Source of the DNA: a virus
Direction: 5' to 3' (one strand)
Length of the DNA: 40,896 nt
IMG/VR virus record: IMGVR_UViG_3300049259_000191
Coordinates: 1 to 40,896 of that record
Within the stretch, counting starts at the first letter, position 1. Each line of letters starts with the position of its first letter. Below the pieces are notes generated by a model. It made no database searches. It had not been told where the DNA came from and saw only the letters and a program-made list of their open reading frames with translations. Positions 5,970 to 38,187 of this stretch are shown one piece after another. Position numbers and translations under genes: made by a program.

Positions 5970-5970
5970 C

Positions 5971-6456
5971 ATGCCCCCGATCCGACGCGAGTGGCTGACC
6001 GTCAACGCTCTCGACAGCTTCCTCGCCGTCGACTCGCACACCTTCGGTTGGAAGGTCGTCGACTACACCGCTCTCCGAGGCCGCACCCGCGTCGGGACCG
6101 ACCGCGCGATCCCTGGTCGTGCCGGTCGGGACCCGATCCCGCGCGAGTGGGATGAGCACCGACTCGCCCTCACCTGGAAGATCCAGGGCCTGTTCGACAA
6201 GGACGGGGCGCGCTACGCGGACTCCGGAATCGACACCTTCGACGGTGTGGATCTGAACCACCAGTTCATCCTCGACAACCTGGTAAACGCCCTCGACGAG
6301 CGCGACGTTCTGTTCCACCATCGCCAAGGCACCGAGTGGGACGGGTCGATCATCGTCGAGAACTGGGAACCGTCACCCGATCCCGACTCGGGCGGGGACG
6401 TCCTCATTGCGCCACTGACACTCGTCATCCCGGCCGGCTGGTTGACGCCAGCATGA
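5971..6456 (+). CDS. Distal tail protein-like (Dit family)
   Basis: This 161-residue protein starts one base after the tape measure stop. It has a beta-rich organisation starting with REWLTVNALDSF. The second gene after the tape measure is typically a distal tail or baseplate component. The Dit family forms a ring at the tail tip that connects the tube with the receptor-binding apparatus. The Trp-rich C-terminus (TEWDGSIIVENWEPS) and the pairing with a larger baseplate gene fit. The identification is by order and style, not by a diagnostic motif. Its stop overlaps the next start (ATGA). Confidence 0.65.
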   Translation: MPPIRREWLTVNALDSFLAVDSHTFGWKVVDYTALRGRTRVGTDRAIPGRAGRDPIPREWDEHRLALTWKIQGLFDKDGARYADSGIDTFDGVDLNHQFILDNLVNALDERDVLFHHRQGTEWDGSIIVENWEPSPDPDSGGDVLIAPLTLVIPAGWLTPA

Positions 6457-8039
6457 CCCGTCGGATCACCGTCGATGTCTACGAACCCGACAACATCACG
6501 TACGTCGGCACACTCGGATCCGACACGGGTCGCCAGTGGCTCGAAGATCTCGGCGGGGCTGGCTCCGGAACGGTCGAGTCACGTCTCGATCATGCCGACC
6601 GAGCGCTCCTCACCCATGGACGCATCCTCCGCTTTCTCATCGACGGGACGCCTCGCTGGCCCGGCTGCGAGTTCGAACTGAATCCCGTGCTCGCGGATCC
6701 GTCCGGCCGTGCCTCGGGGCGCGTGGTCGGACTCGCATGCCACGACCTCCTCGCGCTGTTCGACTACGCCGCCGTGTTGCCCGAGCTCGGGTTCGGCCGC
6801 ATCTCGCCGGACAGCCGATATCTCGGCTGGATGAGCCGCTACTACGACCACTCGTGGTGGGGCAACGCCGTGCAGCTGAAACAGCAGAACGATCCCGATC
6901 CCACGAAGCCGTGGTTCGGAGCGCCGAAGCCATGGCATGACGGGAACGCCTGGTGGATCGGCCCGGCCGGCGGCGACACGCCGCCCACCGATCCCGGAGA
7001 CATCTACTTCTACGGCACCTACACGATCCCGGTCGGCGAGGGCGGCGACTACCAGCTCGAGACCACCGCAGACGACGGATTCGAGTGGTACCGGGATGGC
7101 GACCGCGAAGCTCAGGAGATGCGCGTCGCCCTCTGGGGAGTCGCTCGCCAGATCCCATTCCTCGCTGATGAGGGAGCGCATTTCTTCGCGTCGAAGCTGA
7201 CGAACTTCGACCGCCCCAACCCGTTGACGAACGTGACCGCTCTGATCGCGTCGCTCGCGAAGATGCTGGGCGGCGGCGTCGCCGTCGGAGCCGTCGTGTC
7301 GGGCACGAGCGCCGGCACGAAGATGCTCGCCTACCCGGCCACCGAACCAGGCATGACGCCGGGCCACATCATGATCGTGCTGATCGGCGAGAACCAGGAT
7401 CTCGACTGGCAGACCGATCTCACCTGGGACTTCACCGAGACCGAGGATTCCGACGGCGTCGCATGGCCGAAGGAGATCAATGTCTCCTATCCCGTCGGCA
7501 CGTCGCTCTCTGAGGTGATGCGGCATCTCCGCGACATGAACGTCGCCGAGTTCGCTATGGACCCAGTCGGCAAAGTTCTGCACGCCTATGTGAAGAAGGG
7601 TGTCGATCGCAGCGCGACGGTCGCGGTGGAGTACGCGACGAACGTCGCTCGTCTCGGCATGAAGCAGGTGGGACCGGGAGCGAACACGACGGTTTCGCGT
7701 ACTGCCGAAGGCCGGTGGCTGCTCGAGGAAGACACGGCGGCGGTGGCGGCGTGGGGGCGCAGAATCATCGGTTTGTCTCTCGGGTCGGCACCGTCCGACG
7801 CTTCGGCGGCGGATCAGTCGGCGGCGTATTTCGATGATCATGCCGAGCCGATCGACGCGATCACGGATCTTCAGGTCGAAGACTCTCGCTTCGTTGACGG
7901 CACCGTCGCTACCGGCGACCTGGTCACCGGCCCGACGCCTGACGGGAGCACGGCGACCTATCGGGTCCACGGGTTGCGGTTCACCGAGGATGACGCCGGC
8001 TACCCGATCGTGACGCCCGAGTTGGTGAAGGAGCCGTAG
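6453..8039 (+). CDS. Minor tail / baseplate hub protein (ReqiPepy6 Gp37-like)
   Basis: The protein has 528 residues from the ATG at 6453, overlapping the upstream stop (ATGA). The longer frame to 6336 lies within the previous gene. It is beta-rich, with a segment at roughly residues 185-210 (GDIYFYGTYTIPVGEGG) that resembles a sugar-binding strand, and the pattern common to Gp37-like proteins of Gram-positive siphoviruses. These proteins link the tail tip to the fibre. The C-terminus (TYRVHGLRFTEDDAGYPIVTPE) is typical of this group. Confidence 0.6.
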   Translation: MTRRITVDVYEPDNITYVGTLGSDTGRQWLEDLGGAGSGTVESRLDHADRALLTHGRILRFLIDGTPRWPGCEFELNPVLADPSGRASGRVVGLACHDLLALFDYAAVLPELGFGRISPDSRYLGWMSRYYDHSWWGNAVQLKQQNDPDPTKPWFGAPKPWHDGNAWWIGPAGGDTPPTDPGDIYFYGTYTIPVGEGGDYQLETTADDGFEWYRDGDREAQEMRVALWGVARQIPFLADEGAHFFASKLTNFDRPNPLTNVTALIASLAKMLGGGVAVGAVVSGTSAGTKMLAYPATEPGMTPGHIMIVLIGENQDLDWQTDLTWDFTETEDSDGVAWPKEINVSYPVGTSLSEVMRHLRDMNVAEFAMDPVGKVLHAYVKKGVDRSATVAVEYATNVARLGMKQVGPGANTTVSRTAEGRWLLEEDTAAVAAWGRRIIGLSLGSAPSDASAADQSAAYFDDHAEPIDAITDLQVEDSRFVDGTVATGDLVTGPTPDGSTATYRVHGLRFTEDDAGYPIVTPELVKEP

Positions 8040-8041
8040 CC

Positions 8042-8758
8042 GTGCCGAAACTGCCGGGCTCGCTTGTGCAGCGGCTCACCACGATGCACCGGACCATGAA
8101 CCGGAACGCCGGTGGCGGGCGCTCGGCCCTCGTAGCGCCCGAACCGCGGCCCCTTACGCCGCCCGGTTCGCCGCTCGGTGATTCATACGATGCGCTCGCC
8201 CCGTGGGGTGTTGCTGGTGACAGCACCTGGCAGGGGCATCCGTGGTACGCGATCTTCGAGGATGCCGCGGCCGCTGCCGCGCAGTCGGGCGGCTCGTTCG
8301 ACTTCGGTATCAACCCGGCTGGTGATCCGTCGATCCCGGTCGGGTTCGCCTGGTCCCGTGACGCGCAGGACACCTCAGCCGGCTACGTGCAGTTCCTGCT
8401 GGGTGACGACTTCTGCTGGTTGCAGATGTATCCGAACTCGGCGTTTTGGGCCGAGTACGTCGTCGAGGCCGCGCAAGCCCATTGGGAGCTCGGCGGGTCG
8501 GGTGTCGCGCTCATCGAAGGGACCGCCACGTCGAACAACGGCAAGGTTCGGGTGACGGCTGGACCTAACAAGGTCGAGACATACGCCGACAACACCAACG
8601 ACAACGCGTGGATCGTGCTGTCGGCTTCCACCGCGCCCGGTTCCTTCACGCATCTCGGCGACGGCGTGCTCTTCATCCAGATCAACGTCGGGACCGGGAA
8701 GTACGAAGCAGTCATGCGCCTCAACGGCACGGATGTTGTGTTCGCGGTCGAGCCGTGA
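8042..8758 (+). CDS. Minor tail / fibre-associated protein
   Basis: The 238-residue protein starts at GTG 8042, two bases after the previous stop. It begins with a basic, proline-rich linker (PEPRPLTPPGSPLGD) and continues as a beta-rich domain with strands such as VRVTAGPNKVETY and ALIEGTATS. Such architecture is common for tail tip proteins and receptor-binding accessories. No named family can be assigned. Its stop is shared with the next short gene (GTGA). Confidence 0.55.
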   Translation: MPKLPGSLVQRLTTMHRTMNRNAGGGRSALVAPEPRPLTPPGSPLGDSYDALAPWGVAGDSTWQGHPWYAIFEDAAAAAAQSGGSFDFGINPAGDPSIPVGFAWSRDAQDTSAGYVQFLLGDDFCWLQMYPNSAFWAEYVVEAAQAHWELGGSGVALIEGTATSNNGKVRVTAGPNKVETYADNTNDNAWIVLSASTAPGSFTHLGDGVLFIQINVGTGKYEAVMRLNGTDVVFAVEP

Positions 8759-11782: not shown

Positions 11783-12697
11783 ATGCTGCTGGACGCTACT
11801 TCTGCGCCTCTTCCCGATCTCGGGACCACGCCACGACGCCAGGCCGAACTCGTGGGCGGAGCGTTCATCGCCGGCTACTCCTCACCGCACACCAGGGACG
11901 CCTACCGGATCGATCTGAGGCTCTGGCTCACGTTCCTCGACGAACTCGACGTCGCCGATCCGATCCACGACGTGACTCGCAGTCATGTCGAGCTGTTCAT
12001 GCGCGACATGGAGCTGCGCGGCCGCATGCCGTCGACGATCGCGCGACGCATCGGCACGCTCTCTCGCTTCTACGAGTGGCTCGTCGACGAGGAGTACCTC
12101 GACCGCAACCCGACCCGCCGGGTCAAACGGCCAGCAGTGTCATCCGACTCCAACACGCCGTGGCTGTCCCGCCGGCAGTTGGCCGACTGGATTGACGCCG
12201 GCGAAGAGCTCGGCGGCTATGACGCCATCGTCGCCCTGGTCCTCGGCCTCAACGCGTTGCGCGTCGGCGAGCTCTGCTCATGCAACGTCGAGAGCCTCGG
12301 CGAGGACCGCTACCACCACACGCTCCGGTTCATCGGCAAGGGGTCGCAGCCCGCAGTGGTGCCGCTGCCGCCGCGCTCGATGCAGACCATCGCCCGGACG
12401 CTCGACGGCCGCACGTCGGGTCCGCTCGTGCTCAACCGCTACGGCAACCGATCGACGAGGATCAACGTCGCCCGGTCAGTGAGCCGCATAGCGCGATCCG
12501 CCGGGATCGGCGTGCACATCTCGCCGCACTCGATCCGCCATTCAGCGGTGACCGCCGCGTTCGAGGCCGGTCACACCCAACGCGACGTTCAGGCGTTCGC
12601 GCGGCACCGCGACCCTCGCAGCACACAGATCTACGACCGCTCCCGCGAGTCGCTCGACCGCCATGTCGCCTACGCCCTCGTGCGCGATCTCGCCTGA
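11783..12697 (+). CDS. Small XerC/D-like tyrosine recombinase
   Basis: This 304-residue protein has all catalytic residues of the tyrosine recombinase family: Arg160 (in NALRVGEL), Lys186 (IGKGSQ), the H-x-x-R of box II (SPHSIRH, His249 and Arg252), His275, and the nucleophile Tyr284 (RSTQIYDR). The N-terminal core-binding domain shows the usual SPHTRDAY and L-SRFYEWL segments. It is much smaller than the second integrase at 17723. It lies between the tail fibre and the endolysin, away from the attP. A role in site-specific inversion, multimer resolution or target choice is open. Confidence 0.9.
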   Translation: MLLDATSAPLPDLGTTPRRQAELVGGAFIAGYSSPHTRDAYRIDLRLWLTFLDELDVADPIHDVTRSHVELFMRDMELRGRMPSTIARRIGTLSRFYEWLVDEEYLDRNPTRRVKRPAVSSDSNTPWLSRRQLADWIDAGEELGGYDAIVALVLGLNALRVGELCSCNVESLGEDRYHHTLRFIGKGSQPAVVPLPPRSMQTIARTLDGRTSGPLVLNRYGNRSTRINVARSVSRIARSAGIGVHISPHSIRHSAVTAAFEAGHTQRDVQAFARHRDPRSTQIYDRSRESLDRHVAYALVRDLA

Positions 12698-12719
12698 CTC
12701 CCCGACCGAGGAGATGCCG

Positions 12720-14474
12720 GTGACCCACATCGAGGACGTGCTGCTCTTCGCGATCAGCGAGAAGGGCGTCCGCTATGTGTTCGGTGCCGAAGCCTCTGTA
12801 CGCGAGGACCATCCCGGGCGGATCGACTGCTGCCTTGTGGCCGGGACTCTCATAACGACCGCCCGCGGCGCGATCCCGATCGAGGAAGTCGCATCCGGCG
12901 ATCTGACGGCAACCTGGGACGCCGGGGCGCTCTCGTGGCGGAAGGTGATCGCTGCCGAGCCGCAGACAGAGCAGCCCGTGTTCAAGGTCCGCACTCGGAG
13001 TCGGGCACTCGTCGGCTCGAGCAATCACCCCGTGCTCCGGCTCGTCCGGGGCGACCGTCCGCGGATTGGTGTCGAGGTCTCGTGGGGCGTCGAGTGGGCA
13101 CGGATCGACGAGCTCCAGCGGGGCGATTTGATCGTCACGTCGGAGCACTACGACATCACATCGGGTGAGCCGCATGCCCTGGATGATGGAACACCCATCG
13201 ACGCCGACGTTGCATGGCTTGTGGGCCTCGCACTCGGCGACGGTCACGTTTCTCATGGCGGACTGAATGTCTGCGTCTACGGAGCTACAGCCGATCGAGC
13301 GGCGACGATCATCGAGCGGACATGGCATTGCAGCACGCGCCGCACGGCGTCGCATGGCGTCATCAGTCCCAAGGCGACCAGCGCGGCCTTCCTACCGCTC
13401 CTGGCGAAGTCACATCTCAAGCAAGTACCGGCGTGGGTGTGGAAGTCGCCGGCGCATCTGGTGCGCTCGTTCCTCGCCGGCTACGCCGCTGCTGACGGCC
13501 ATCACGACAAACGTGGGCACGTCGCCTACCACTCATCCTCACGACGATTGGTCGCCGAGGCCCGGGCACTTCATCTCATGCTCGGCGACCGCGTATCGAA
13601 CATCACGACAACCGAGCGCCGGCATCCGATCACAATCAAGGGAAAGCTCGTCAAGAACGCCCTGCCGCTGCATTCCGTGACCTGGTATCCCGACTCGGTC
13701 CGCCGCAACCAGACGATGCTGGACACCTACGGCGCTCGTCGTGCGCTGCCCGACCGGCGCTTCGGCGCGGAGCGCGTGCTCACCGTCGAGTCAGCGGGCG
13801 AGGCGATGACCTACGACCTCGAGATCGAGGGCACGCACAACTACGTCGCTGACGGAATCGTCGTCCACAACTCCGAGCTCGTGGAGTGGTCCTGCGGGAA
13901 GGCGGGCGTGCAGCCCACCGTCCCGGATGGCTCCTACAACCAGTTCGCCCACTGCCAGCGCAACAACACCGTCCTCTCCGTAGACCGTGCGCTGCACACG
14001 CGTGGCGCCCTCATGTTCATCACCGAGAAGAACGGCGTGATCGGCCATGTCGCGTGCTCGCTCGGCGACGGCACGACGATGGAAGCGAAGGGCGCCGCCT
14101 ACGGCGTAGGCACCTTCACCGCCTACCGCTCGGACGGCAGGCTCCGCTTCGACAAGGCCGGCCTCATTCCCGGCGTCGACTACTTCTCGCCCCGCAAGCA
14201 GCTACCGCCACCTCCGGAGGACCAGATGGCCGCAACGAAAACCGTGAAGGTGACCTGCGCCGCGAAGACAGGGCACGGCCAAGCCCCCGTCCCCGGTGTT
14301 CACAGGGAGACGGTGTTGAGCGCGTCGTGTCTCGCCGGCCGCGACGGCTCAGTCGCGAAGGTCGGCATCCATCCCGATCTGAGCATCGACGGCTTCGCAC
14401 AGGTGTGCGCCGACGTCGGCGGGCCCACGCCCATTCCGGTTGAGGTGACGTGCTTCGTCGCCTTCAATCCGTGA
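12720..14474 (+). CDS. NlpC/P60 endolysin interrupted by a homing-endonuclease intein
   Basis: The precursor has 584 residues from GTG 12720, which has GAGGAG at 12708-12713 at correct spacing. The in-frame ATG at 12714 lies too close to that site. Extein: VRYVFGA leads to Asp36-Cys37, the catalytic cysteine of NlpC/P60 peptidases, then resumes SELVEWSCGKAGV after the intein. The later GHVACSLGDG supplies the catalytic His, and MEAKG the third polar site. The intein occupies residues 38-384. Spliced, the enzyme would be 237 residues and cut peptidoglycan stem peptides at lysis. A C-terminal domain after a PPPPE hinge, with four Cys, may bind the wall. Confidence 0.88.
   Translation: MTHIEDVLLFAISEKGVRYVFGAEASVREDHPGRIDCCLVAGTLITTARGAIPIEEVASGDLTATWDAGALSWRKVIAAEPQTEQPVFKVRTRSRALVGSSNHPVLRLVRGDRPRIGVEVSWGVEWARIDELQRGDLIVTSEHYDITSGEPHALDDGTPIDADVAWLVGLALGDGHVSHGGLNVCVYGATADRAATIIERTWHCSTRRTASHGVISPKATSAAFLPLLAKSHLKQVPAWVWKSPAHLVRSFLAGYAAADGHHDKRGHVAYHSSSRRLVAEARALHLMLGDRVSNITTTERRHPITIKGKLVKNALPLHSVTWYPDSVRRNQTMLDTYGARRALPDRRFGAERVLTVESAGEAMTYDLEIEGTHNYVADGIVVHNSELVEWSCGKAGVQPTVPDGSYNQFAHCQRNNTVLSVDRALHTRGALMFITEKNGVIGHVACSLGDGTTMEAKGAAYGVGTFTAYRSDGRLRFDKAGLIPGVDYFSPRKQLPPPPEDQMAATKTVKVTCAAKTGHGQAPVPGVHRETVLSASCLAGRDGSVAKVGIHPDLSIDGFAQVCADVGGPTPIPVEVTCFVAFNP
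12831..13871 (+). mobile_element. Intein with LAGLIDADG homing endonuclease, inserted after the lysin catalytic Cys
   Basis: The 347-residue element starts with Cys1 (CLVAGTLI, block A) and ends with His346-Asn347 (VVHN, block G), followed by Ser+1 of the extein. Block B has the catalytic His66 (SSNHP). Two LAGLIDADG-like motifs (LVGLALGDG at intein residues 130-138 and FLAGYAAADG at 214-223) frame a DOD homing endonuclease region. Block F is present (TYDLEIEGTHNYVADG). All splicing residues are intact, so splicing is expected. The insertion point is directly between Cys37 and Ser of the active-site DCS motif. Confidence 0.9.
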
Positions 14475-22154: not shown

Positions 22155-22408
22155 AGGGCACGCCGATCAACGACGTGAAGGTCGGCGCCCGCCGACTGCG
22201 AGTCGACGACGTCGTGAAGGTGAAGGGCCTTCGCGGAGCCTTCCGCATCACAGGTATGCGCGACCTTGGCGGCGACAACGGTGACGCGCCGAACGTCGAG
22301 GTCACGCTGTACGGCGGGAACCACGGCGGCGTGCAGATGTACCGCACCGTCATGGTCGAGCGCATCGGTACACGGAAGGCGCTCGCAGGAGCGGGGGCGC
22401 AGTCATGA
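22151..22408 (+). CDS. Small KOW/SH3-like protein, unknown
   Basis: The 85-residue protein, from GTG 22151 (GTGA overlap), contains a motif typical of small beta-barrel domains (RVDDVVKVKGLRGAFRITGMRDLG). Such domains bind nucleic acid or proteins. It directly precedes the RecT-like gene and its stop overlaps that start. Family name not assignable. Confidence 0.5.
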   Translation: MKGTPINDVKVGARRLRVDDVVKVKGLRGAFRITGMRDLGGDNGDAPNVEVTLYGGNHGGVQMYRTVMVERIGTRKALAGAGAQS

Positions 22409-23796
22409 CCGACGTCGTCCCGTTCCCGCACACTGAGACCGGCGGCGAGCTCGATCTTCACGAGGGTGATCGTCGCCGCCTGAACGCGCTGTATCGCGAG
22501 TGCATGCGGATCGCGAACTCGAAGTTCGTCCCCGACGCGTACAAGGGCGACGCCGACACGATCTTCGCTCTGGCCCGCTACGGCGAGCAGTACGGCCTGG
22601 CGCCGATGCACTCGCTGTCCCGGCTCTACATCATCCAGGGGCGGATCGAGCCGAGCTACGACGTCGTCCTCGGCGTTGTGATGAGCCACGGCCATGAGGT
22701 CCGCATGGAGGAGACGTCATCGGAGCGGTGCACGGTCGCTCTGCGCCGGGTCGACTCGGACTTCTGGCAGCGGGTGACCTTCACGATCGCCGACGCGAAG
22801 CGCGCCGGTCTCCTCGACGTGTGGGTCGAGAAGTGGCAGAGCTCGCAGTCCGGCAAGAAGTTCAAGCAGGAGTACGTCATCGGGACGCTCGACGTCGCCG
22901 GCGAGCCTGAGCTCAAGGCCGAGCTCGTCGACAATGCGCCCGGATGGGCGACGGAGCTCATCGAGAAGCGCGAGTTCAGGTTCCGGGACAACTGGCGTCG
23001 TCATCCGGACGACATGCTCGCCTCGAAGGCGATCCGCCGCGCGGCGAAGCGGTTCTGCCCGGATGCGTTGCTGAACCTCACCGACGAGGGCGAGGGGATG
23101 CCGATCGACGATCTGCAGCGCGTCGATCAGCCGGTCTCGCACGACCACGACCAGGCCGGCGACGACGACATCGTCGACGCAGAGATCGTCGACGAGACCG
23201 GCGAGGACGGGACTCCACAGAAGGGCACCGGTACTGACGGTGCGGACACGGAGGAGAGGCCCGCCGCCACGGCGACAGCGGGCGATGGTGCCGACGGCCA
23301 GGACGTCGGACGTGCCGCATCCGAGCCGAGCCCACCGGCAGGGGATGAGGGGGCGGAGGAACCTTCTGCCGCCGTGGAGGCGCCCGAGCCCCCTCCTCCA
23401 TCCACCGCAGAGGGGCGAGTCGAGGAGCTGACGGAGCAGCTCGAGCAGAGCGTGACCGCGGCACGAGAGGCCCGGCGCGCGGCCGCGGCGTCGCCCGAGC
23501 CCGAGGAGGAGGACCTCGAGGTCGTCGCCGACGAGGACGTGCCTCTCGCCGGCGCCACGTTCGTGCGGTCATTCGCGATCCAGGTTCGCGAGTCGGACGA
23601 TGTGCACGGTCGACGGTTCGATGACGAGGACCGGCATGCGATCGTCGCTCACGTCACCGAGGGACGCACGCGCTCGACGAAGGAGGTCCGGCTCTCCGAG
23701 GTGTCGGACTGCTTCGCCACGCTGTCGCAGCTCGTGAAGGGACGCTTCGAGTCGATCGACATCGACGGACTCCGCACGATCCGGCCGGTCAAGTGA
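22405..23796 (+). CDS. RecT-like single-strand annealing protein with acidic linker
   Basis: The 463-residue protein shows the RecT pattern: YGEQYGLAPMHSLSRLYIIQGRI around residues 54-76, SYDVVLGVVMSHGHEV after it, and the conserved VTFTIADAKRAGL and MLASKAIRRAAKRF segments (about 125-220). RecT proteins anneal complementary single strands in recombination and replication. A disordered acidic/Pro/Ala linker (residues 250-385) joins an extra C-terminal domain of about 80 residues of unknown function. No RecE-like exonuclease is seen nearby. Confidence 0.75.
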   Translation: MTDVVPFPHTETGGELDLHEGDRRRLNALYRECMRIANSKFVPDAYKGDADTIFALARYGEQYGLAPMHSLSRLYIIQGRIEPSYDVVLGVVMSHGHEVRMEETSSERCTVALRRVDSDFWQRVTFTIADAKRAGLLDVWVEKWQSSQSGKKFKQEYVIGTLDVAGEPELKAELVDNAPGWATELIEKREFRFRDNWRRHPDDMLASKAIRRAAKRFCPDALLNLTDEGEGMPIDDLQRVDQPVSHDHDQAGDDDIVDAEIVDETGEDGTPQKGTGTDGADTEERPAATATAGDGADGQDVGRAASEPSPPAGDEGAEEPSAAVEAPEPPPPSTAEGRVEELTEQLEQSVTAAREARRAAAASPEPEEEDLEVVADEDVPLAGATFVRSFAIQVRESDDVHGRRFDDEDRHAIVAHVTEGRTRSTKEVRLSEVSDCFATLSQLVKGRFESIDIDGLRTIRPVK

Positions 23797-26908: not shown

Positions 26909-27411
26909 GGGTCGTCGGCCTCGACGTCTCGTCGACGTGCACCGGCGTTGCCGACGCGCGTGGACGCACGTGCCTGGTCCAACCGCGCACCAAGGGCGTC
27001 GGTAGTCGGCTCGATGAGACCGTCACCGGCGTCATCCGCGCCCTCGGGGCCGGAGGTGGTGCCGACATGGCGGTCATCGAGGGCTACAACCCGCGCGGCG
27101 CGCAGGGCTTCACGATGTGCCGGCTCGCCGAGGCCGGCGGGATCGTCCGCTGGGCGCTTTGGCGGGACAGCGTGAAGATCGTCGAGCTCGCACCGACGAG
27201 CCTCAAGAAGCTCGCTACCGGTCACGGCAACGCCGACAAGGACGCCGTGCGCGCCGCCGCGACGACGTGGCTCGGCTACGAGGGGAAGTCGTACGACGAA
27301 GCAGACGCGTTATGGGCGCGCGAGGCGGCGCTGCAGGCGTACAGCAGCTCGTCGGTGACGTTGCCGGCCGAGCATCTCGAGGCCCTCAAAGCCGTGAGGT
27401 GGCCAAGCTGA
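26905..27411 (+). CDS. RuvC-like Holliday junction resolvase
   Basis: This 168-residue protein has a RuvC-type RNase H fold core. The catalytic acids appear in their usual places: Asp7 (VVGLDVSS), Glu59 (MAVIEGY) and Asp131 and Asp134 (SYDEADAL) near the C-terminus. RuvC resolves Holliday junctions or branched DNA before packaging. GTG 26905 overlaps the previous stop. The RecT-like gene upstream and helicase downstream make a recombination module. Its stop overlaps the next gene in a TGATG. Confidence 0.8.
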   Translation: MRVVGLDVSSTCTGVADARGRTCLVQPRTKGVGSRLDETVTGVIRALGAGGGADMAVIEGYNPRGAQGFTMCRLAEAGGIVRWALWRDSVKIVELAPTSLKKLATGHGNADKDAVRAAATTWLGYEGKSYDEADALWAREAALQAYSSSSVTLPAEHLEALKAVRWPS

Positions 27412-27929
27412 TGTTGACGGAACATGGCGAGCGGAAGATCGATCGGTTCTTCTGGCTGTTGATCGCGGTGGCCGTGCTGTACCTGATCGGGCACCTGGTC
27501 GTGGCGTTCACCCGCGAGGCGTTCGAGACGCCGTCGATTCCGCTGCGGCCGATCCCGGCGTCAGCACCGGCGGCGGCGGACTATGCCGAGCCGATCACAT
27601 CGACCCCATCCACGTCGGTGAAGGCTGCCGCCCGTCGTTCCGTGGTCACGTCGTCGACGTTCGATCTGCTGGCGGACTGCGAATCCGGGGAGTGGGATCG
27701 CAACGGCAACCCCATCCCGGGCACCGCACGGTGGGACGATCAGCGCGGAGATTACGAGGGCGGACTGCACTTTGCTCCGTCGACTTGGGCGCGCGCTGGC
27801 GGCCTCCGCTACGCTCCGCACGCCTACCTAGCGACGCGCGTGGAGCAGATCGAGATCGCTGAGGCGTGGCTGGCGCGTACGAGCTGGCGGCAATGGCCCG
27901 TCTGCTCCCGAAAGATCGGCGTCCGGTGA
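27411..27929 (+). CDS. Membrane-anchored Rpf-like transglycosylase
   Basis: The 172-residue protein has a membrane segment at residues 13-33 (FFWLLIAVAVLYLIGHLVVAF), a Pro/Ala-rich linker, and a C-terminal domain (85-172) matching resuscitation-promoting factor domains: DLLADCESGEW with catalytic Glu91, GGLHFAPSTW, YAPHAYLATRVEQIEIAEAWL and WPVCSRKIG. Cys90 and Cys165 can form the conserved disulfide. Such domains cut peptidoglycan glycan strands in actinobacteria. Placement between a RuvC-like and a helicase gene is unexpected for a cell-wall enzyme. Confidence 0.85.
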   Translation: MLTEHGERKIDRFFWLLIAVAVLYLIGHLVVAFTREAFETPSIPLRPIPASAPAAADYAEPITSTPSTSVKAAARRSVVTSSTFDLLADCESGEWDRNGNPIPGTARWDDQRGDYEGGLHFAPSTWARAGGLRYAPHAYLATRVEQIEIAEAWLARTSWRQWPVCSRKIGVR

Positions 27930-30900
27930 GCGCGCTCGCCGAATGGACAGACGAGACGAGTCCGTCCGCTCATCTCACCGAAGTGCCCCGCCCGGTCGAC
28001 CGGTTCGAGCTGCCAGCCGCGACCCTCGCCGCTGCGGCAGCCGCCGCGAGGGTTGACGCGGGCGTGCTCCACGAGGCGGTGCGGCTCGCGCTGTCCGGCG
28101 GACCCGACGAGGAGCTCCCCGGCTGGCAGGAGGACGGCCTCTGCCGCAGCGGCGGTGACGTCGACAGCTACTTCCCCGCGCTCGGCTCGGGACGAGAGTT
28201 CCGAAGCCTCCTTGACCGCTGTGCGGGCTGTCCTGTGCAGTCGGCGTGTCTCGCGTCGGCGCTGTCGGCTGGTGATCGTTGGGGCATATGGGGCGGAACC
28301 TCGGAGAACGGCCGGCGGAAGCTGCGGAAGGTGCTGCGCAAGGCCGGGGTGATGGGCGTCACCGGAGAGGACGCGTTCCTCGCCTGGATGGCGCCGGGCG
28401 CTGATCGAGAGCCTGCGCATCGCGACGAGCTCCTGCTGGTCGGGATCACGCCGCGGCCGCATCAACGCGAGGCGGTCGCTGCGGTGTGCGCCGAGATCGC
28501 CAGTGGTGGCCCGTGTCAGATCGCGATGGCGACCGCGTCCGGGAAGACGCACGTCGGGCTCTGGGTCGCCGAGCATCTCGACGCGCGACGCGTGCTCGTG
28601 CTCGTACCGAACCTCGCTCTCGTCGCGCAAACCGCCGAGTTGTGGCAGGCGGTGACGAGCAGGTCGATCGAGACGCTCGCCGTGTGCAGCGACACCGGGG
28701 AACTGACGATCGAAACGACCACTGAAGTCGGCGTCGTCCGTGACTTCCTGCAGCACGCCGACCGGGCCGTCGTGTTCGCCACCTACCAATCCTCGGCTGT
28801 CGTCGCTGCCGCCGGCGTGCCGTTCGACCTGACGATCGCCGACGAGGCTCACCATCTCGCGGGCGAGACCGGCAAGGCGTTCGCGTCGGTCCTGCGCGGC
28901 GAGATCCCGACCGCCCGCACGCTGTTCATGACGGCGACGCCGCGGCGGTTCCATCGACACAACGGCGACGTCGACCTGGTCGGGATGGATGACGAGGCGT
29001 TCGGACCTCGGGTGTACGAGCTCAATCTGTCCGACGCGGTCGCCGCCGGGATCGTCGCCGACTACCGAGTGATCGTCGCAGCCGTCGACCGTGACACGTT
29101 CGATCGGGTCGCGGCACATCCTGAGCTCGGCGACGTCGATCCGCATCTCCTGGCCGGCGCGATCGCTGTCGTGCGCGCCATGGGCGACTCCGATCTCCGC
29201 AGCTGCATCAGCTTCCACACCCGGGTGGAACGGGCTCGCACGTTCGCCTCGCTGGTCGGGCTCGTCGCCGAGCAGCTGCCGGGCGCGACGCCGGCGGGCC
29301 CGGGCTGGTCCGGGTTCCTGAACGGTGACGCGTCGATGCGGATCCGCCGTCGGCTCCTCGCCCGGCTGGTCGACGACGTGACGTGGGGTGTGATCGCCAA
29401 CGCCAAGACCCTCGGCGAAGGCGTCGATGTTCCCGCTCTGGACTCGATCGCGATCGTGGACCCGAAGACATCCGAGCAGGACGTCATGCAGGCCGTCGGT
29501 CGCGCTCTTCGCCGACCAGGCGCCAAGGCGAAGGTCGGGACGGTCCTCCTGCCTGTCCTGCTCACCGGCGACGCTGATCCAGACGATCCGCTCGCCGGGG
29601 TCGACGATCGCAGTGTCGACATCATCGCCGGCGTCCTCCGTGCGCTACGGGCGCACGACGCCGACCTCGGCAGCCGGCTCGACCGAGCTCGCCGCCGGAT
29701 CGGCGTGCCCTCGAGCGCTCGGACGAGCACCCCTCGTCTTCTCCGCTCGTTGTTGCGGGGCCGCGCAGCGCGTGGGCTGCTGCGCAGCCGGGTGCAGTTG
29801 TGGCTTCCGGGTGGCGCTACCGGTGACCTCGCCGGCGCGCTCTCGCTGCGGTTGATACGCGAGTCGACCGCCAGCTGGGAGGAGTCGTACAGCCGTCTGT
29901 GCGCGTGGGTCGAGCAGCACGGTTCGCTTCCCGCTCAGGGCGTGAAGGTGCCGGACGAGACGGGCACGTTCGCCCTGGGCGCGTGGATGGGCAAGCAGCG
30001 CACTCTCTGCAAGCGAGGGATGCTCGCCTCCGATCGGATCGCACGCCTCGAGGCACTCGCAGGGTGGACGTGGAACGCGAGGGACGAGCACTGGTGGCGG
30101 AAGTTCGAGCTGCTCACCGAGTACGTCGAGCGTCACGGTTGGCCACCCGCACGCGCCGGCGCTGGCATGTGGCGCGGATCAAGCATGGCGAACTTCGTCA
30201 GAGGCTGCCGTGCCGGGTACACCGTCGACGGCAAGGAAGGCGGGTGGCTTCGCCAGTTCCCGGATCGGATCGCCGCGCTCGAGGCGATGCCCGGCTGGGT
30301 GTGGAACGAGCTCGACGCCGCTTGGGAGGAGCATTTCGACCAGCTGCGCCGCTGGGCGACTGTCACGGGTCATGCGGATCCGGCGTTCGCGGACGAGATC
30401 GATGGGTTCCGGATCGGAGCCTGGACGATCAAGCAGCGCGCCAAGATCCGGCGCGGCCAACTCGATGAGGAGCGTGCGGCGCGGTTACGCGCGCTACCCG
30501 GCTGGCGTGACGAGATTCGTGAGGCCGGCTACGTCGTGACGTGGGACGAGAACGTCGAGATCGTCGCTCGTTGGATGGCCGAGCATGATGGTCAACAGCC
30601 GCCACAGACGCTCGCGCTCGACAGCGGCTTCCGCATCGGGCACTGGTGCGCAAAGCAGCGAAATGCGCGCCGATCGGGAGCGCTTTCAGCCGCCCGGGAG
30701 GCCCGCTTGTCGGCGATTCCCGGATGGCAGTGGCAGGTCCGAGTCGAACGATGGGACGCGTTCTACGACGCCCTCGTCGAGCACGTGCAGGCCGGCGGAT
30801 CCGCCGGCAGCATCCCCAGAGAGCTGCGGCCAGGCGGGATCAACCTCGGCAACTGGGCGACGACGCAGCGGTTGATGTACGAGCGGGGGACGCTCACGCG

Positions 30901-30964
30901 CCGGCGGATTGAGCGGCTCGAGGCGGTCCCGGGTTGGCGCTGGCTGCGGGGGACCGCGTCATGA
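27926..30964 (+). CDS. WhiB domain + SF2 helicase + five helicase-associated repeats
   Basis: The protein has 1012 residues from GTG 27926 (GTGA overlap). Residues 65-135 form a WhiB-like iron-sulfur domain: Cys73, Cys99, Cys102, Cys108 and the G-x-W-G-G turn (GIWGGTSE, 120-127). Residues 175-560 are a superfamily 2 helicase: ATASGKTH (202-209), DEAH (306-309), TAT (336-338), and QAVGRALRR (522-530). From about 651 five helicase-associated repeats follow, each ending in a pattern such as RLEALAGWTW. It is a three-part fusion I do not recall as a named protein. It might couple redox or nitric oxide sensing to DNA unwinding; that is inference. Confidence 0.85.
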   Translation: MSALAEWTDETSPSAHLTEVPRPVDRFELPAATLAAAAAAARVDAGVLHEAVRLALSGGPDEELPGWQEDGLCRSGGDVDSYFPALGSGREFRSLLDRCAGCPVQSACLASALSAGDRWGIWGGTSENGRRKLRKVLRKAGVMGVTGEDAFLAWMAPGADREPAHRDELLLVGITPRPHQREAVAAVCAEIASGGPCQIAMATASGKTHVGLWVAEHLDARRVLVLVPNLALVAQTAELWQAVTSRSIETLAVCSDTGELTIETTTEVGVVRDFLQHADRAVVFATYQSSAVVAAAGVPFDLTIADEAHHLAGETGKAFASVLRGEIPTARTLFMTATPRRFHRHNGDVDLVGMDDEAFGPRVYELNLSDAVAAGIVADYRVIVAAVDRDTFDRVAAHPELGDVDPHLLAGAIAVVRAMGDSDLRSCISFHTRVERARTFASLVGLVAEQLPGATPAGPGWSGFLNGDASMRIRRRLLARLVDDVTWGVIANAKTLGEGVDVPALDSIAIVDPKTSEQDVMQAVGRALRRPGAKAKVGTVLLPVLLTGDADPDDPLAGVDDRSVDIIAGVLRALRAHDADLGSRLDRARRRIGVPSSARTSTPRLLRSLLRGRAARGLLRSRVQLWLPGGATGDLAGALSLRLIRESTASWEESYSRLCAWVEQHGSLPAQGVKVPDETGTFALGAWMGKQRTLCKRGMLASDRIARLEALAGWTWNARDEHWWRKFELLTEYVERHGWPPARAGAGMWRGSSMANFVRGCRAGYTVDGKEGGWLRQFPDRIAALEAMPGWVWNELDAAWEEHFDQLRRWATVTGHADPAFADEIDGFRIGAWTIKQRAKIRRGQLDEERAARLRALPGWRDEIREAGYVVTWDENVEIVARWMAEHDGQQPPQTLALDSGFRIGHWCAKQRNARRSGALSAAREARLSAIPGWQWQVRVERWDAFYDALVEHVQAGGSAGSIPRELRPGGINLGNWATTQRLMYERGTLTRRRIERLEAVPGWRWLRGTAS

Positions 30965-31440
30965 CGCTCACGCCGACACTTGCGCTCGATCCCGAACTGC
31001 TCCTCAACCCCGGCCAGGTTGCTCGTCTGTTCCGTGTAGCTCCGAAAACGGTTCTCGGATGGTGCGCGAGCGGGGATCTTCGTCACTACCGCCTGAGTGC
31101 TCGCGTCATTCGAATCGATCCCAATGATCTGGACGACTTCGCACGACTCCGTTCAGTGCGCGCTGCGGAGATGGATCAACGCCAGTCCGAACCGGTCGTG
31201 TCGCATCCTCCGTCCGACGTCGGCAGGCGGTTCGGCGAACGCGTCGAAGCTCTCCTCACGGAGCTCGGCTGGTCACGCCGGCGACTGGCGCGCGAGACCG
31301 GGCTGTCGGTCGGAACCGTCAACTCCTTCCTCGTCGAGCGACGCTGCCCACGCGTCGACACCGCCTACCGGATCGCCCTCGCGCTCGACACGACCCTCGA
31401 TGACCTTCTCGATCCGTTCGGCCGATCGGAACCGACGTGA
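30961..31440 (+). CDS. Two-HTH regulator (excisionase-type plus XRE-type)
   Basis: From ATG 30961 (ATGA overlap) the 159-residue protein has an excisionase-type HTH at about 13-60 (LLLNPGQVARLFRVAPKTVLGWCASGDLRHYR) and an XRE-type HTH at about 85-150 (LLTELGWSRRRLARETGLSVGTVNSFLVERRCPR). This order of two different HTH domains is uncommon. It could regulate the operon it is in or a host promoter. Confidence 0.7.
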   Translation: MTLTPTLALDPELLLNPGQVARLFRVAPKTVLGWCASGDLRHYRLSARVIRIDPNDLDDFARLRSVRAAEMDQRQSEPVVSHPPSDVGRRFGERVEALLTELGWSRRRLARETGLSVGTVNSFLVERRCPRVDTAYRIALALDTTLDDLLDPFGRSEPT

Positions 31441-31646: not shown

Positions 31647-32179
31647 TGGGTATGGGCGAAGGCGCGATCGAGATGGCCTGCGGTTGTGTCGTCGACATCG
31701 CGCAACTCAGTGCCGGTTCGGCCGTTGAGTGCTCTGGCCACGGGATTCGATGGGCGGTTCGATCAGAAGCGCAGCCGTGCACTCATTGTCCCGTGATCAT
31801 GTGGGGCTACTTCGCGGACCCCGGCACCCGGACAGGTGAGCAGGCGATCCGACGCGACGAGAGGCAACGCGTTGCGAAGGCGTTGCGAGGTGACCTTGCC
31901 GTAGTTGCGCGCGTGCTGTCATCGGTACTCGCGAACCCCGCGGCGACTCGTGATCATCGCCAGGCGATTGCGCAGTTCCTGAGCAAGGATCAGCGGGACA
32001 AGCTTCGACGTCTGCTCGACGGCGATTTCGCACGGATGGGCCTGTTCCTCGCTGCGCTGGTTGAGGAGGTCGATGATCCGTCTACTCGTCTGTCCTCTAC
32101 TCCGGAACGCCATCGACCCGTTCAGGATCATCGACCGGCGATCGCCGCCTTCCTCAACCAGGAGTCCGACGATGAATGA
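31646..32179 (+). CDS. Unknown early protein (177 aa) with paired Cys start
   Basis: ATG 31646 is in a TGATG junction. It begins with an EMACGCVVD segment like the neighbour upstream, and a CTHC pair near residue 51. The rest is a long helical section (AVVARVLSSVLANPAATRDHRQAIAQFL). No family is recognised. Confidence 0.5.
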   Translation: MGMGEGAIEMACGCVVDIAQLSAGSAVECSGHGIRWAVRSEAQPCTHCPVIMWGYFADPGTRTGEQAIRRDERQRVAKALRGDLAVVARVLSSVLANPAATRDHRQAIAQFLSKDQRDKLRRLLDGDFARMGLFLAALVEEVDDPSTRLSSTPERHRPVQDHRPAIAAFLNQESDDE

Positions 32180-32363
32180 GCATCTGATGAAGGCGAAGGC
32201 GGCGCTCGCCGATGCGCGCGACCTCGACATCCTCGATCCGCAATACACCGAGCTCCTCATCTGCGCACGTGTCCAAGCAGAGGTCGCCCAGGCCGACGCG
32301 CTCGAACGGATCGCGGCGGTGCTGGAGCAGATCGTGCCCGAGGTGGTGTGCATCAATGGCTGA
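32172..32363 (+). CDS. Small helical protein (63 aa)
   Basis: ATG 32172 overlaps the previous gene by eight bases. The product is a helix-rich small protein (KAKAALADARDLDIL, then RVQAEVAQADALERIAAVLEQIV). Alternating leucines suggest dimerisation. Unknown. Confidence 0.5.
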   Translation: MNEHLMKAKAALADARDLDILDPQYTELLICARVQAEVAQADALERIAAVLEQIVPEVVCING

Positions 32364-33526: not shown

Positions 33527-33696
33527 CCGACAAAGCCGCGCAATGCCCGCGCGTCGTAGGCGGATCCGATGGCGGCCTTACGAGGTGCGGCAACGAAATG
33601 CCGTGCCCGGATCATCGACGTCTCGACGGCGTCCCGACCGAGGAACTCGAGGCGGAGCTCACTCGCCGAAAGCAGGACCCGAACGATGGCAGCTGA
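33523..33696 (+). CDS. Small Cys/His-rich protein (57 aa)
   Basis: GTG 33523 overlaps the previous stop (GTGA). It has CPRVVGG, RCGNEMPCPDHRR and an acidic helix, a likely zinc-ribbon pattern. The end overlaps the HerA-like start by 11 bases. Unknown function. Confidence 0.5.
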   Translation: MTDKAAQCPRVVGGSDGGLTRCGNEMPCPDHRRLDGVPTEELEAELTRRKQDPNDGS

Positions 33697-35470
33697 ACTC
33701 CGCATCTCGCCTGACCTGTCGCTGCCGCTCGAGGCCGCGACGGAGACGTTCGCCATCCTCGCCGTGAAGCGGGCTGGCAAGAGCAACGCGGCAGTCGTGA
33801 TGGCCGAGGAGATGTACGACGTCGGGATCCCGTGGGTCGCCATCGACGCCAAGGGCGATTGGTGGGGCGTTCGTGCCGCCGGCGACGGCGAGGCGGCGGG
33901 TCTCTCGGTCCTCGTGTTCGGTGGCCTGCACGGTGACGTGCCGCTCGAGCCTGGGAGCGGGCGTCTCGTGGCCGATCTCGTTGTCGAGCAGCGGATCACG
34001 TGCGTCCTCGATGTGTCAGAGATGACGAAGGCCGACCAGCGCCGGTTCCTGATCGACTTCGCTGACCGGCTCTACCGGCGCAACACCGAACCGCTCCACG
34101 TCTTCTGTGAGGAAGCCGACGAGTACATCCCGCAGCGGGTCCTCGGTGAGATGGCGAAGCTCGTCGGGGCGTTCGAGACGCTCGTGAAGCGAGGCGGGTT
34201 CCGAGGCATCGGCATCACGCTCATCACACAGCGCAGCGCCTCGCTCAACAAGGACGTGCTCACGCAAGCCGGGACGCTCATCGCCATGCGGACGCCGAGC
34301 CCGCAGGACCGGAAGGCCGTCCTGGCGTGGATCGATTACCACCAGGCCGGCAAGGAGGTCGTTGACGAGCTGCCATTGCTCGAGGACGGCGAGGCGTGGG
34401 TGTTTTCGCCGCAGTGGCTCCGCACGTTGCAGAAGATTCGGTTCCGTCGGCGTCGTACGTTCGATTCCGGTGCGACGCCGAAGGTTGGCGGCAAGCCGCG
34501 GCCTCCTGCCCGCTTGGCCGACGTCGATCTCGCCGCCATCAAGGAGCAGATGGCCGAGACGATCGAGCGAGCGAAGGCCGATGATCCGAAGGAGCTCCGC
34601 AAGCAGATCAAGCAGCTGCAGCAGCAGCTCGGCGAACGTCCGGCGGAGCGCGAGGTCGTCGAGATCGAAGTGCCGATCGTGCCCGCCGAGGTGCGCGACG
34701 CCGTCGTAGCGATCGGCCAGATCGCCGACCGGGCGTCGATCAACCTCCAGGAGGCGATCGCCAAGGTCTTCGGCGACATCCTCGAGCAGACCGTCGGCCT
34801 GGTCGCCGGCGGCTGGGGGATTCAGGCCGAGCGCACTGCGAGCGTGATCGACGCCGGCGAGCGCTTCACAGATCGTTCGGGCAGGGCGAAACGGACAGCC
34901 CCTACTCCGCCTGCTTCCGTCGCACGTCGGGGAGACATCCCGATGGCACCCCGCCCTGCCCGAACGAACACCGTCGAGGGCGTGAACGAGCCGAGGCAGC
35001 GGATCCTCGACGCGATCGCCTGGTACAACTCGGTCGGCGTCGCCACGCCCCGCCGCGGCCACGTCGCCTTCGTCGCAGGTACTTCGCCGGCGTCATCGGG
35101 TTTCGAGAAGAACCTCGGCGCGCTGCGCACCGCCGGCCTCGTGCACTATCCGGAGCCCGGCACCGTCGCGCTCACGCCTGACGGCGCTGAGGTAGCCCGG
35201 CCCTCCGTGCAGATCAGCACGACCGCCGAGCTCATCGACGCGCTCGGTGCGCGGCTCGGGAAGCCGAAGGCGGCGATCCTGCGCGCACTCGTCGACGTGT
35301 ACCCCGAACCGATGGACCGCGTCGAACTCGCCGAGCGCGTGGGCGTGTCGCCGCAGTCCAGCGGATTCGAGAAGAACATCGGGTCGCTGCGAGGCCTCGG
35401 ATTTGTCGCCTACCCCGGCCCCGGGCTCGTCGTCGCGACGGATCTGCTGTTCATCGACGGTGACCGATGA
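33686..35470 (+). CDS. HerA/FtsK-like ATPase with tandem C-terminal repeats
   Basis: The 594-residue protein starts at ATG 33686. Walker A is AVKRAGKSN (residues 26-34), Walker B is LHVFCEEADEY (137-147), and a TQR sensor (181-183) follows, the layout of HerA/FtsK DNA-translocating ATPases. A helical/coiled-coil middle (300-350) follows, then two similar C-terminal repeats (PASSGFEKNLGALRTAGLVHYPEPG near 470-495 and PQSSGFEKNIGSLRGLGFVAYPGPG near 555-580), probably winged helices. No nuclease partner is recognised beside it. Confidence 0.75.
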   Translation: MAAELRISPDLSLPLEAATETFAILAVKRAGKSNAAVVMAEEMYDVGIPWVAIDAKGDWWGVRAAGDGEAAGLSVLVFGGLHGDVPLEPGSGRLVADLVVEQRITCVLDVSEMTKADQRRFLIDFADRLYRRNTEPLHVFCEEADEYIPQRVLGEMAKLVGAFETLVKRGGFRGIGITLITQRSASLNKDVLTQAGTLIAMRTPSPQDRKAVLAWIDYHQAGKEVVDELPLLEDGEAWVFSPQWLRTLQKIRFRRRRTFDSGATPKVGGKPRPPARLADVDLAAIKEQMAETIERAKADDPKELRKQIKQLQQQLGERPAEREVVEIEVPIVPAEVRDAVVAIGQIADRASINLQEAIAKVFGDILEQTVGLVAGGWGIQAERTASVIDAGERFTDRSGRAKRTAPTPPASVARRGDIPMAPRPARTNTVEGVNEPRQRILDAIAWYNSVGVATPRRGHVAFVAGTSPASSGFEKNLGALRTAGLVHYPEPGTVALTPDGAEVARPSVQISTTAELIDALGARLGKPKAAILRALVDVYPEPMDRVELAERVGVSPQSSGFEKNIGSLRGLGFVAYPGPGLVVATDLLFIDGDR

Positions 35471-37326: not shown

Positions 37327-38187
37327 GTGAAGAACGGTGTGTACAGAGGCCATAGCGCCGGCACGATCGCCATGATCAACACATCGTTCGCGACGCTGAC
37401 CAAGACCGCCGTCGACGTGGCGATGACGTACTCGATCGACCTCGGGATCGTCCATCAGATGTTCGCCTCGGCCGAGCTCGACGGCTGCGCGGCGTGGGTG
37501 AAGGCCGACCCCGATCGGCTGCTCGTGCTGTCAGTGCGGGGCATCGCGTCGGATCTCGCCCGACAGTGGGACAACACCCGCGACGACGCGAAGCATCTCG
37601 CGTTGGCGCACGACCTCAAGGCGCGGGGGATCGCAGCGCGCACCGTCATTCGCTACGGCTGGGAGATGCAGGGCAGTTGGTTCCCGTGGGGACCCACCAA
37701 GACCGGTGATGGGACGCAGGCGCCGGGCTTCGTGCGGATGTTCCGTCGTGTCGCCAAGCTGTACCGCGCGGTGCCGGAGCTGCGCATCAACTGGTGCGCG
37801 AACGGCTGCCCTCAGAACGCCGGCGCCTGGTGGCCGGGTGACGACGTGGTCGACATCGTGGGGATGGACCGCTACGACGCCTGGGTCGGGAACATCCTCG
37901 ACCCGGCGAAACGGTGGGCCAGGGTCGGCGCCGACTTCGACCGTCAGGCCGCGTTCGCCGACGCGCACGGGAAGGCGAAGTCGCTCGACGAGTGGGCGTG
38001 CTGGCACACCGGCTCACCGGCCTACGGCGGTGGGGACTCGCCGTACTTCGTGACCAGCGTGGCGAAGCATCTCGCCGACCACGGCTACTTGTACTCAACC
38101 TACTTCGACAGCTCAGCCGGCGGTGTCGGCGTGACGTTGGCGGATTGTCCGAAGGCGCGCGCCGCGTACATGGCGGCGTTCGCATGA
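37327..38187 (+). CDS. GH26-like glycoside hydrolase
   Basis: The protein has 286 residues from GTG 37327, with a weak ribosome-binding site. It shows a TIM-barrel glycosidase pattern: RYGWEMQGSWFPWG with acid/base Glu113, then DDVVDIVGMDRYDAW and a SLDEWACW segment with nucleophile Glu222. GH26 enzymes are beta-mannanases or related. There is no signal peptide or fibre domain. A role could be degradation of host surface polysaccharide at lysis or in adsorption, or modification of an intracellular glycan; not decidable. Confidence 0.7.
   Translation: MKNGVYRGHSAGTIAMINTSFATLTKTAVDVAMTYSIDLGIVHQMFASAELDGCAAWVKADPDRLLVLSVRGIASDLARQWDNTRDDAKHLALAHDLKARGIAARTVIRYGWEMQGSWFPWGPTKTGDGTQAPGFVRMFRRVAKLYRAVPELRINWCANGCPQNAGAWWPGDDVVDIVGMDRYDAWVGNILDPAKRWARVGADFDRQAAFADAHGKAKSLDEWACWHTGSPAYGGGDSPYFVTSVAKHLADHGYLYSTYFDSSAGGVGVTLADCPKARAAYMAAFA

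Follow-up and report, generated by a model that had tools for sequence, protein, structure and literature searches.

A WhiB-type domain heads a type ISP-like SF2 motor with helicase-associated repeats in three phage genomes

WhiB-like (Wbl) proteins, such as WhiB, WhiB1, WhiB3, and the WhiB proteins of phages (e.g., that of TM4), are small, separate proteins that share four cysteines, a GxWGG turn, and a basic tail. Their clusters are known sensors of O2 and NO (PMC5741622, PMC3390391). A survey of WhiB in actinophages termed the functions of the phage proteins "largely enigmatic," and mentioned helicases once, as neighbors of whiB in cluster EK (PMC8612146). Among DNA motors, the type ISP enzymes LlaBIII and LlaGI carry an SF2 translocase core together with an Mrr nuclease, a methyltransferase, and target recognition, and both are dsDNA translocases (PMC7049714). 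Actinobacterial proteins annotated as "DEAD/DEAH box helicase / Helicase associated domain protein" combine an SF2 core with an array of helicase-associated (HA) repeats. DNA helicases of the XPD/DinG type are SF2 motors with a 4Fe-4S cluster, the four cysteines of which are located within the first RecA domain. In kind, the closest precedent for the protein described here is the Ku-Lsr2 fusion of cluster J mycobacteriophages (Omega, Corndog), which circularizes incoming phage DNA and in which an actinophage likewise couples a regulator domain of host type with an enzyme that processes DNA (PMC8612146), although there the regulator is Lsr2 and the enzyme Ku.

The stretch of DNA analyzed here (the window) comprises all 40,896 nucleotides of IMG/VR record IMGVR_UViG_3300049259_000191. 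The original prediction, made from the sequence alone, was that a single frame of 1012 residues joins a WhiB domain, an SF2 helicase, and five HA repeats, and this is borne out by Pfam, in which PF02467, DEAD/ResIII, and PF03457 all matched the one protein above their curated cut-offs. The WhiB match, at residues 67–133, reached 52.8 bits against a cut-off of 23.6 (E = 6.1e-14), and the HA repeats matched in five stretches with 186.6 bits against a cut-off of 28.4 (E = 8.5e-56), while the core was covered by ResIII (174–341), DEAD (178–340), and Helicase_C (465–529). The four cysteines (73, 99, 102, and 108), the GIWGG turn (120–124), and the helicase motifs to which the prediction pointed are present in the translation, SF2 motifs I (ASGKT, 204), II (DEAH, 306–309), III (TAT, 336–338), and VI (QAVGRALRR, 522) being intact. 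GC3 ranges from 0.76 to 0.90 over the whole gene and shows no break where the WhiB domain meets the helicase. The GTG start is supported by one of the relatives described below (G1145), whose protein opens with the same GTGAGCGCGC as that of the window.

Compared with the described systems, the protein takes its parts from separate families. The solved structures nearest to its N-terminal part are WhiB, WhiB3, WhiB1, WhiB7, and WhiB4, with 8dy9 (WhiB) as the best. As the domain is fused to a motor, which it heads, and is not small and stand-alone, the protein contains a Wbl domain but is not a classical Wbl protein. Its predicted 4Fe-4S cluster and SF2 motor recall XPD and DinG, but the cysteines, which sit in a Wbl fold, all precede motif I and are not inserted in the first RecA domain. 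The remainder is nearest by sequence to the type ISP enzymes LlaGI and LlaBIII, followed by RadD. In a model of residues 1–600, the SF2 core was confident and its best fold match was LlaBIII (E = 6e-26), followed by RadD and XPB; by homology to LlaBIII, the protein is probably an ATP-driven dsDNA translocase. The WhiB part of this AlphaFold model, over which the alignment has just two rows, is of low confidence (pLDDT mostly 27–52), and so is its packing against the motor. The HA array was modeled as confident helical repeats (mean pLDDT 85), for which a fold search returned no significant solved match, a Bacteroides domain (2kta) being a weak one. Pfam detected no methyltransferase, nuclease, or target-recognition domain in the protein: HA repeats follow the motor, and the WhiB domain occupies the place of the N-terminal Mrr nuclease.

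Table 1. Position of the fusion gene, its domains, and selected neighbors in the window.
Feature	Position (nt)	Strand	Remarks
WhiB-SF2-HA CDS	27926..30964	+	1012 aa, GTG start; open frame
N-terminal helical extension, residues 31-66	28016..28123	+	two helices predicted; kept in relatives
WhiB (Wbl) domain, residues 67-133; Cys73, Cys99, Cys102, Cys108; W67, Y82, F83, W122	28124..28324	+	Pfam E=6e-14
Basic tail and linker, residues 134-166 (RKVLRKAG..GVTGEDA..AW)	28325..28423	+	15/33 positions invariant, three phages
SF2 ATPase/translocase core, residues 174-600, type ISP-like	28445..29725	+	Pfam; LlaGI/LlaBIII by sequence and fold
Five helicase-associated (HA) repeats, residues 641-1004	29846..30937	+	PF03457, five stretches; helical repeats in model
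Transglycosylase-like gene (PF06737), upstream, coupled	27408..27929	+	stop overlaps GTG start (GTGA)
HTH_17 and Cro/C1-type HTH regulator, downstream, coupled	30964..31440	+	its ATG overlaps the stop of the fusion gene
RecT-like annealing protein, upstream, early region	22405..23796	+	PHROG 4171 E=6e-20

When viral and genome contigs were scanned with a single protein, no relatives of the fusion emerged; alignment-based scans were needed to find them. A scan of IMG/VR with a WhiB profile detected IMGVR_UViG_3300028578_000005 (G431), in which the match falls within an open frame of 1150 residues that also encodes SF2 and HA domains, and a scan with the parts common to the window and G431 proteins detected IMGVR_UViG_3300049004_000093 (G1145). 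The same order (WhiB, linker, SF2, HA) is thus found in two further phage contigs. Pfam identified all three domains in both proteins, which also keep the four cysteines and the common linker. The window and G431 proteins align end to end with 54% identity, and the pairwise identities among the three are 53.4, 56.6, and 54.1%. A last viral scan with a different query region returned the same two contigs and nothing further. The family therefore has at least three members in the collections searched, where it is rare; the WhiB-SF2-HA fusion is real and conserved. In line with the original prediction, to which no described system of this form was known, our literature search, which had most subscription papers and all preprints outside its reach, found no paper describing the combination.

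Conservation is unevenly distributed over the three proteins. Within the WhiB domain, which is less conserved than the motor, 22 of 67 positions are invariant, and these include P84, G123, and G124 as well as all four cysteines, W67, and W122 (hypergeometric P = 7e-4 for the last six). Positions 82 and 83 are aromatic in all three (YF, YF, and FY), while position 121 in the turn varies (GIWGG, GVWGG, and GWWGG). The turn is followed in each by an Arg/Lys-rich tail, and after it by a linker, VLR.AG..GV.GE.A..AW; the proportion of invariant positions given for this region in Table 1 exceeds that of the WhiB domain. Positions 67, 82/83, and 122 correspond to W3, F17/F18, and W60 of WhiB1. In WhiB3, single alanine mutations of F31, F32, and W76 (equivalent to F17, F18, and W60 of WhiB1) abolish binding to region 4 of sigma-A (PMC10245118). 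However, such aromatic residues, including W3 in WhiB1, also shield the cluster (PMC10245118), so that their conservation is no proof of sigma binding. Between the window and G431, pN was lower than pS in every part (WhiB, 0.33 and 0.50; SF2, 0.26 and 0.52), which, with synonymous sites close to saturation, gives no more than a rough indication of purifying selection.

A tree of 69 SF2 cores placed the three fused proteins in one clade with a long stem (SH-aLRT 100), separate from the SF2-HA helicases of plasmids and chromosomes; on the evidence of this tree, the fusion is shown to have a single origin. In a tree of WhiB domains, the fused domains could not be placed, as the columns were too few. 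In a direct search of three partly overlapping samples of Actinomycetota genomes (396, 395, and 395), no helicase match extended over the WhiB cysteines, and the fusion is therefore so far known from phage contigs only. Long open frames containing WhiB do occur in bacterial genomes, and in those that were checked, WhiB was either a genuine short gene or lay at the end of a spurious frame with high GC.

The SF2-HA relatives without a WhiB domain are widespread, with matches in 734 plasmid records, and those of actinobacterial plasmids and chromosomes are ~29–35% identical over motor and repeats. In these bacterial proteins the chain starts at the motor or has a short N-terminus, or else an Mrr_cat_2 nuclease stands in the place of WhiB; none of those checked had a WhiB domain. 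Three loci (L093, L107, and L111, near 4410–8345) represent such a bacterial family, with Mrr_cat_2, SF2, and many HA repeats, and without a methyltransferase. In one linear genome, an SF2-HA relative occurs close to either end, with the copies pointing inwards. TtrA, a putative helicase that is required for SLP2 conjugation, is placed likewise (PMC8743542), and, judging by its position, this relative may be TtrA. On two Mycolicibacterium plasmids (L371, 2541–7790, and L374, 705–7790), an SF2-HA helicase gene follows one annotated as a type ISP restriction enzyme, and one of these loci also contains SIR2 and DUF87 genes; they may be defense clusters. An unfused counterpart was seen once, on a plasmid of Candidatus Mycobacterium methanotrophicum (L203, 10053–12931; NZ_CP097321, 176052–178930), where 44 bp separate whiB from an SF2-HA helicase gene downstream of it. 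WhiB genes were found near a helicase in 3 of the loci scanned, against ~0.8 expected by a rough count (Poisson P about 0.05), and none was listed near an SF2-HA helicase on five further plasmids. A conserved linkage of separate whiB genes with these helicases is not taken as evidence here.

The window is a fragment of a temperate phage, with genes for a head-tail adaptor, a tape measure protein, a tail protein, two integrases, HTH regulators, a RecT-like protein, a HerA-like ATPase (33569–35470), and ParB. An actinobacterial host is inferred from the WhiB domain and a GC content of 67–73%. The fusion gene overlaps both of its neighbors at start and stop and is therefore probably part of an operon; G1145 has a lysozyme-like reading (by eye) upstream of it. 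In G431, also a temperate phage, an integrase, HTH genes, RecE-like and RecT genes, and a DnaQ-like exonuclease gene precede the fusion gene across the contig ends, and a separate WhiB, terminase, portal, protease, and capsid follow. This contig starts and ends within the same tandem repeat, and is therefore probably circular. RecT-type recombination genes thus lie upstream of the fusion in the early region of two of the phages, which supports in part the replication role suggested originally, in the sense of replication or recombination.

Besides the fusion, frame-to-frame BLASTP showed that the window shares chiefly HerA and a weak integrase match with G1145, and an integrase and small HTH genes with G431, while G431 and G1145 share terminase, portal, and the separate WhiB. 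The HerA-like gene of G1145 (L376, 4224–5933), upstream of the fusion, is 39% identical to that of the window and has one in-frame TAG. The separate WhiB genes lie on the terminase side of the fusion, downstream of it in G1145 (31659–32261; L355, 8102–8662, in G431), and the window has none. Otherwise the three genomes are largely dissimilar, and the fusion is the longest and among the most similar of their common genes.

Several other features of the window were observed in passing. An intein with Hint and LAGLIDADG matches (12663–14474) seems, by eye, to split an NlpC/P60-like lysin just after its catalytic cysteine (..RIDC/C..VHN/SELVEW..), and a lone response-regulator receiver domain (PF00072; 14476–14835) adjoins the lysin gene. 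The two tyrosine integrases on this one phage fragment (11783–12697 and 17300–18949) differ from each other, and a glycosyl hydrolase family 26 domain is encoded at 37327–38187.

Taken together, we consider the protein most likely (with a probability of about 0.4) to be an early-region dsDNA translocase of the type ISP/SF2-HA kind, in which a Wbl head in the nuclease slot docks on host RNA polymerase in a cluster-dependent manner. The slot that holds an Mrr nuclease in many bacterial relatives is here taken by a Wbl domain with a predicted [4Fe-4S] cluster, connected to the motor by the conserved linker. The HA array and SF2 core would bind dsDNA and pump along it with ATP, while the head, with its cluster intact, would dock like a stand-alone Wbl protein on region 4 of the principal sigma factor in the RNA polymerase holoenzyme. 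Docking would bring the motor to promoters bound by RNA polymerase, which it may then clear or remodel for phage transcription, or for the opening and processing of phage DNA. Docking is preferred because the aromatic residues by which WhiB1 and WhiB3 bind region 4 of sigma-A are kept. The invariant cysteines and aromatics in full-length relatives of 53–57% identity, the single clade of the fused proteins, the Mrr domain in the same slot of bacterial proteins, the closeness of the motor to LlaBIII and LlaGI, the RecT-like gene upstream in the window and RecE-, RecT-, and DnaQ-like genes upstream in G431, and the TtrA-like placement of relatives are all consistent with this reading. Against it stand the variable position 121, the lower conservation of the WhiB domain than of the motor, the low confidence of the modeled WhiB part, and the cluster shielding that could also explain the aromatic residues; in addition, the separate WhiB gene of two of the three phages could perform the sigma job.

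Two alternatives, both rather unlikely in our estimation, keep the translocase and assign a different role to its head. The motor could be gated by redox state or NO, akin to the redox- or stress-gated helicase suggested originally, with loss or nitrosylation of the cluster altering the WhiB fold and a rigid, conserved linker switching the ATPase on or off. The sensing of O2 and NO by Wbl clusters speaks for such a mechanism, as does a linker that is more conserved than the WhiB domain, as a signal-transmitting part would be expected to be; the linker could, however, just as well hold a docking head in the right geometry. The conserved sigma-contact residues favor docking and the conserved linker communication, and the two are not mutually exclusive. 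Fe-S domains play a part in DNA binding or loading in some DNA helicases, and it is similarly improbable, though conceivable, that the head is only a small fold, held together by the cluster, with a basic tail to grip DNA and load the motor, transcription being uninvolved. The Arg/Lys-rich tail of all three proteins and the early recombination context would suit such a pure DNA-processing role, which leaves the kept sigma-binding aromatic face unexplained unless shielding of the cluster accounts for it.

The original prediction also considered defense or anti-defense, but this part found no support. A defense or counter-defense enzyme derived from restriction systems is very unlikely: the best PADLOC matches are to motors of type IIG and type I restriction enzymes, and relatives adjoin a type ISP gene on the two Mycolicibacterium plasmids, yet these matches span only the generic motor core, with no full-length match to a system-specific component, the protein has no nuclease, methyltransferase, or recognition domain, and no restriction gene adjoins it among the window genes tested with Pfam and PHROGs. 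Finally, an assembly join of two genes is ruled out because two independent contigs encode full-length relatives with the same junction and linker, and a recent, functionless chance fusion, with which rarity would agree, is practically dismissed by the same three contigs and by the excess of synonymous over nonsynonymous change in all parts.

While each of the domain families was known already, the SF2-HA motor with a Wbl head is new as far as the literature searched goes. Wbl proteins are usually studied as separate transcription factors, and the fusion physically links this Fe-S and sigma-docking module to DNA processing, such that a single protein could report the state of the cluster as a readout of ATPase activity or translocation. 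The N-terminal slot of the type ISP-like SF2-HA motors is also shown to be interchangeable, as it can hold a nuclease, nothing, or a regulator, and, taken with Ku-Lsr2, the fusion suggests that actinophages equip DNA enzymes with host regulator domains in order to target them. Tentatively, we put forward a new kind of phage enzyme, a dsDNA translocase that would use its Wbl [4Fe-4S] head to dock on host RNA polymerase and would be active only while the cluster is intact. If true, motor activity would be tied to the redox or NO state of the host and to promoters during phage takeover or replication.
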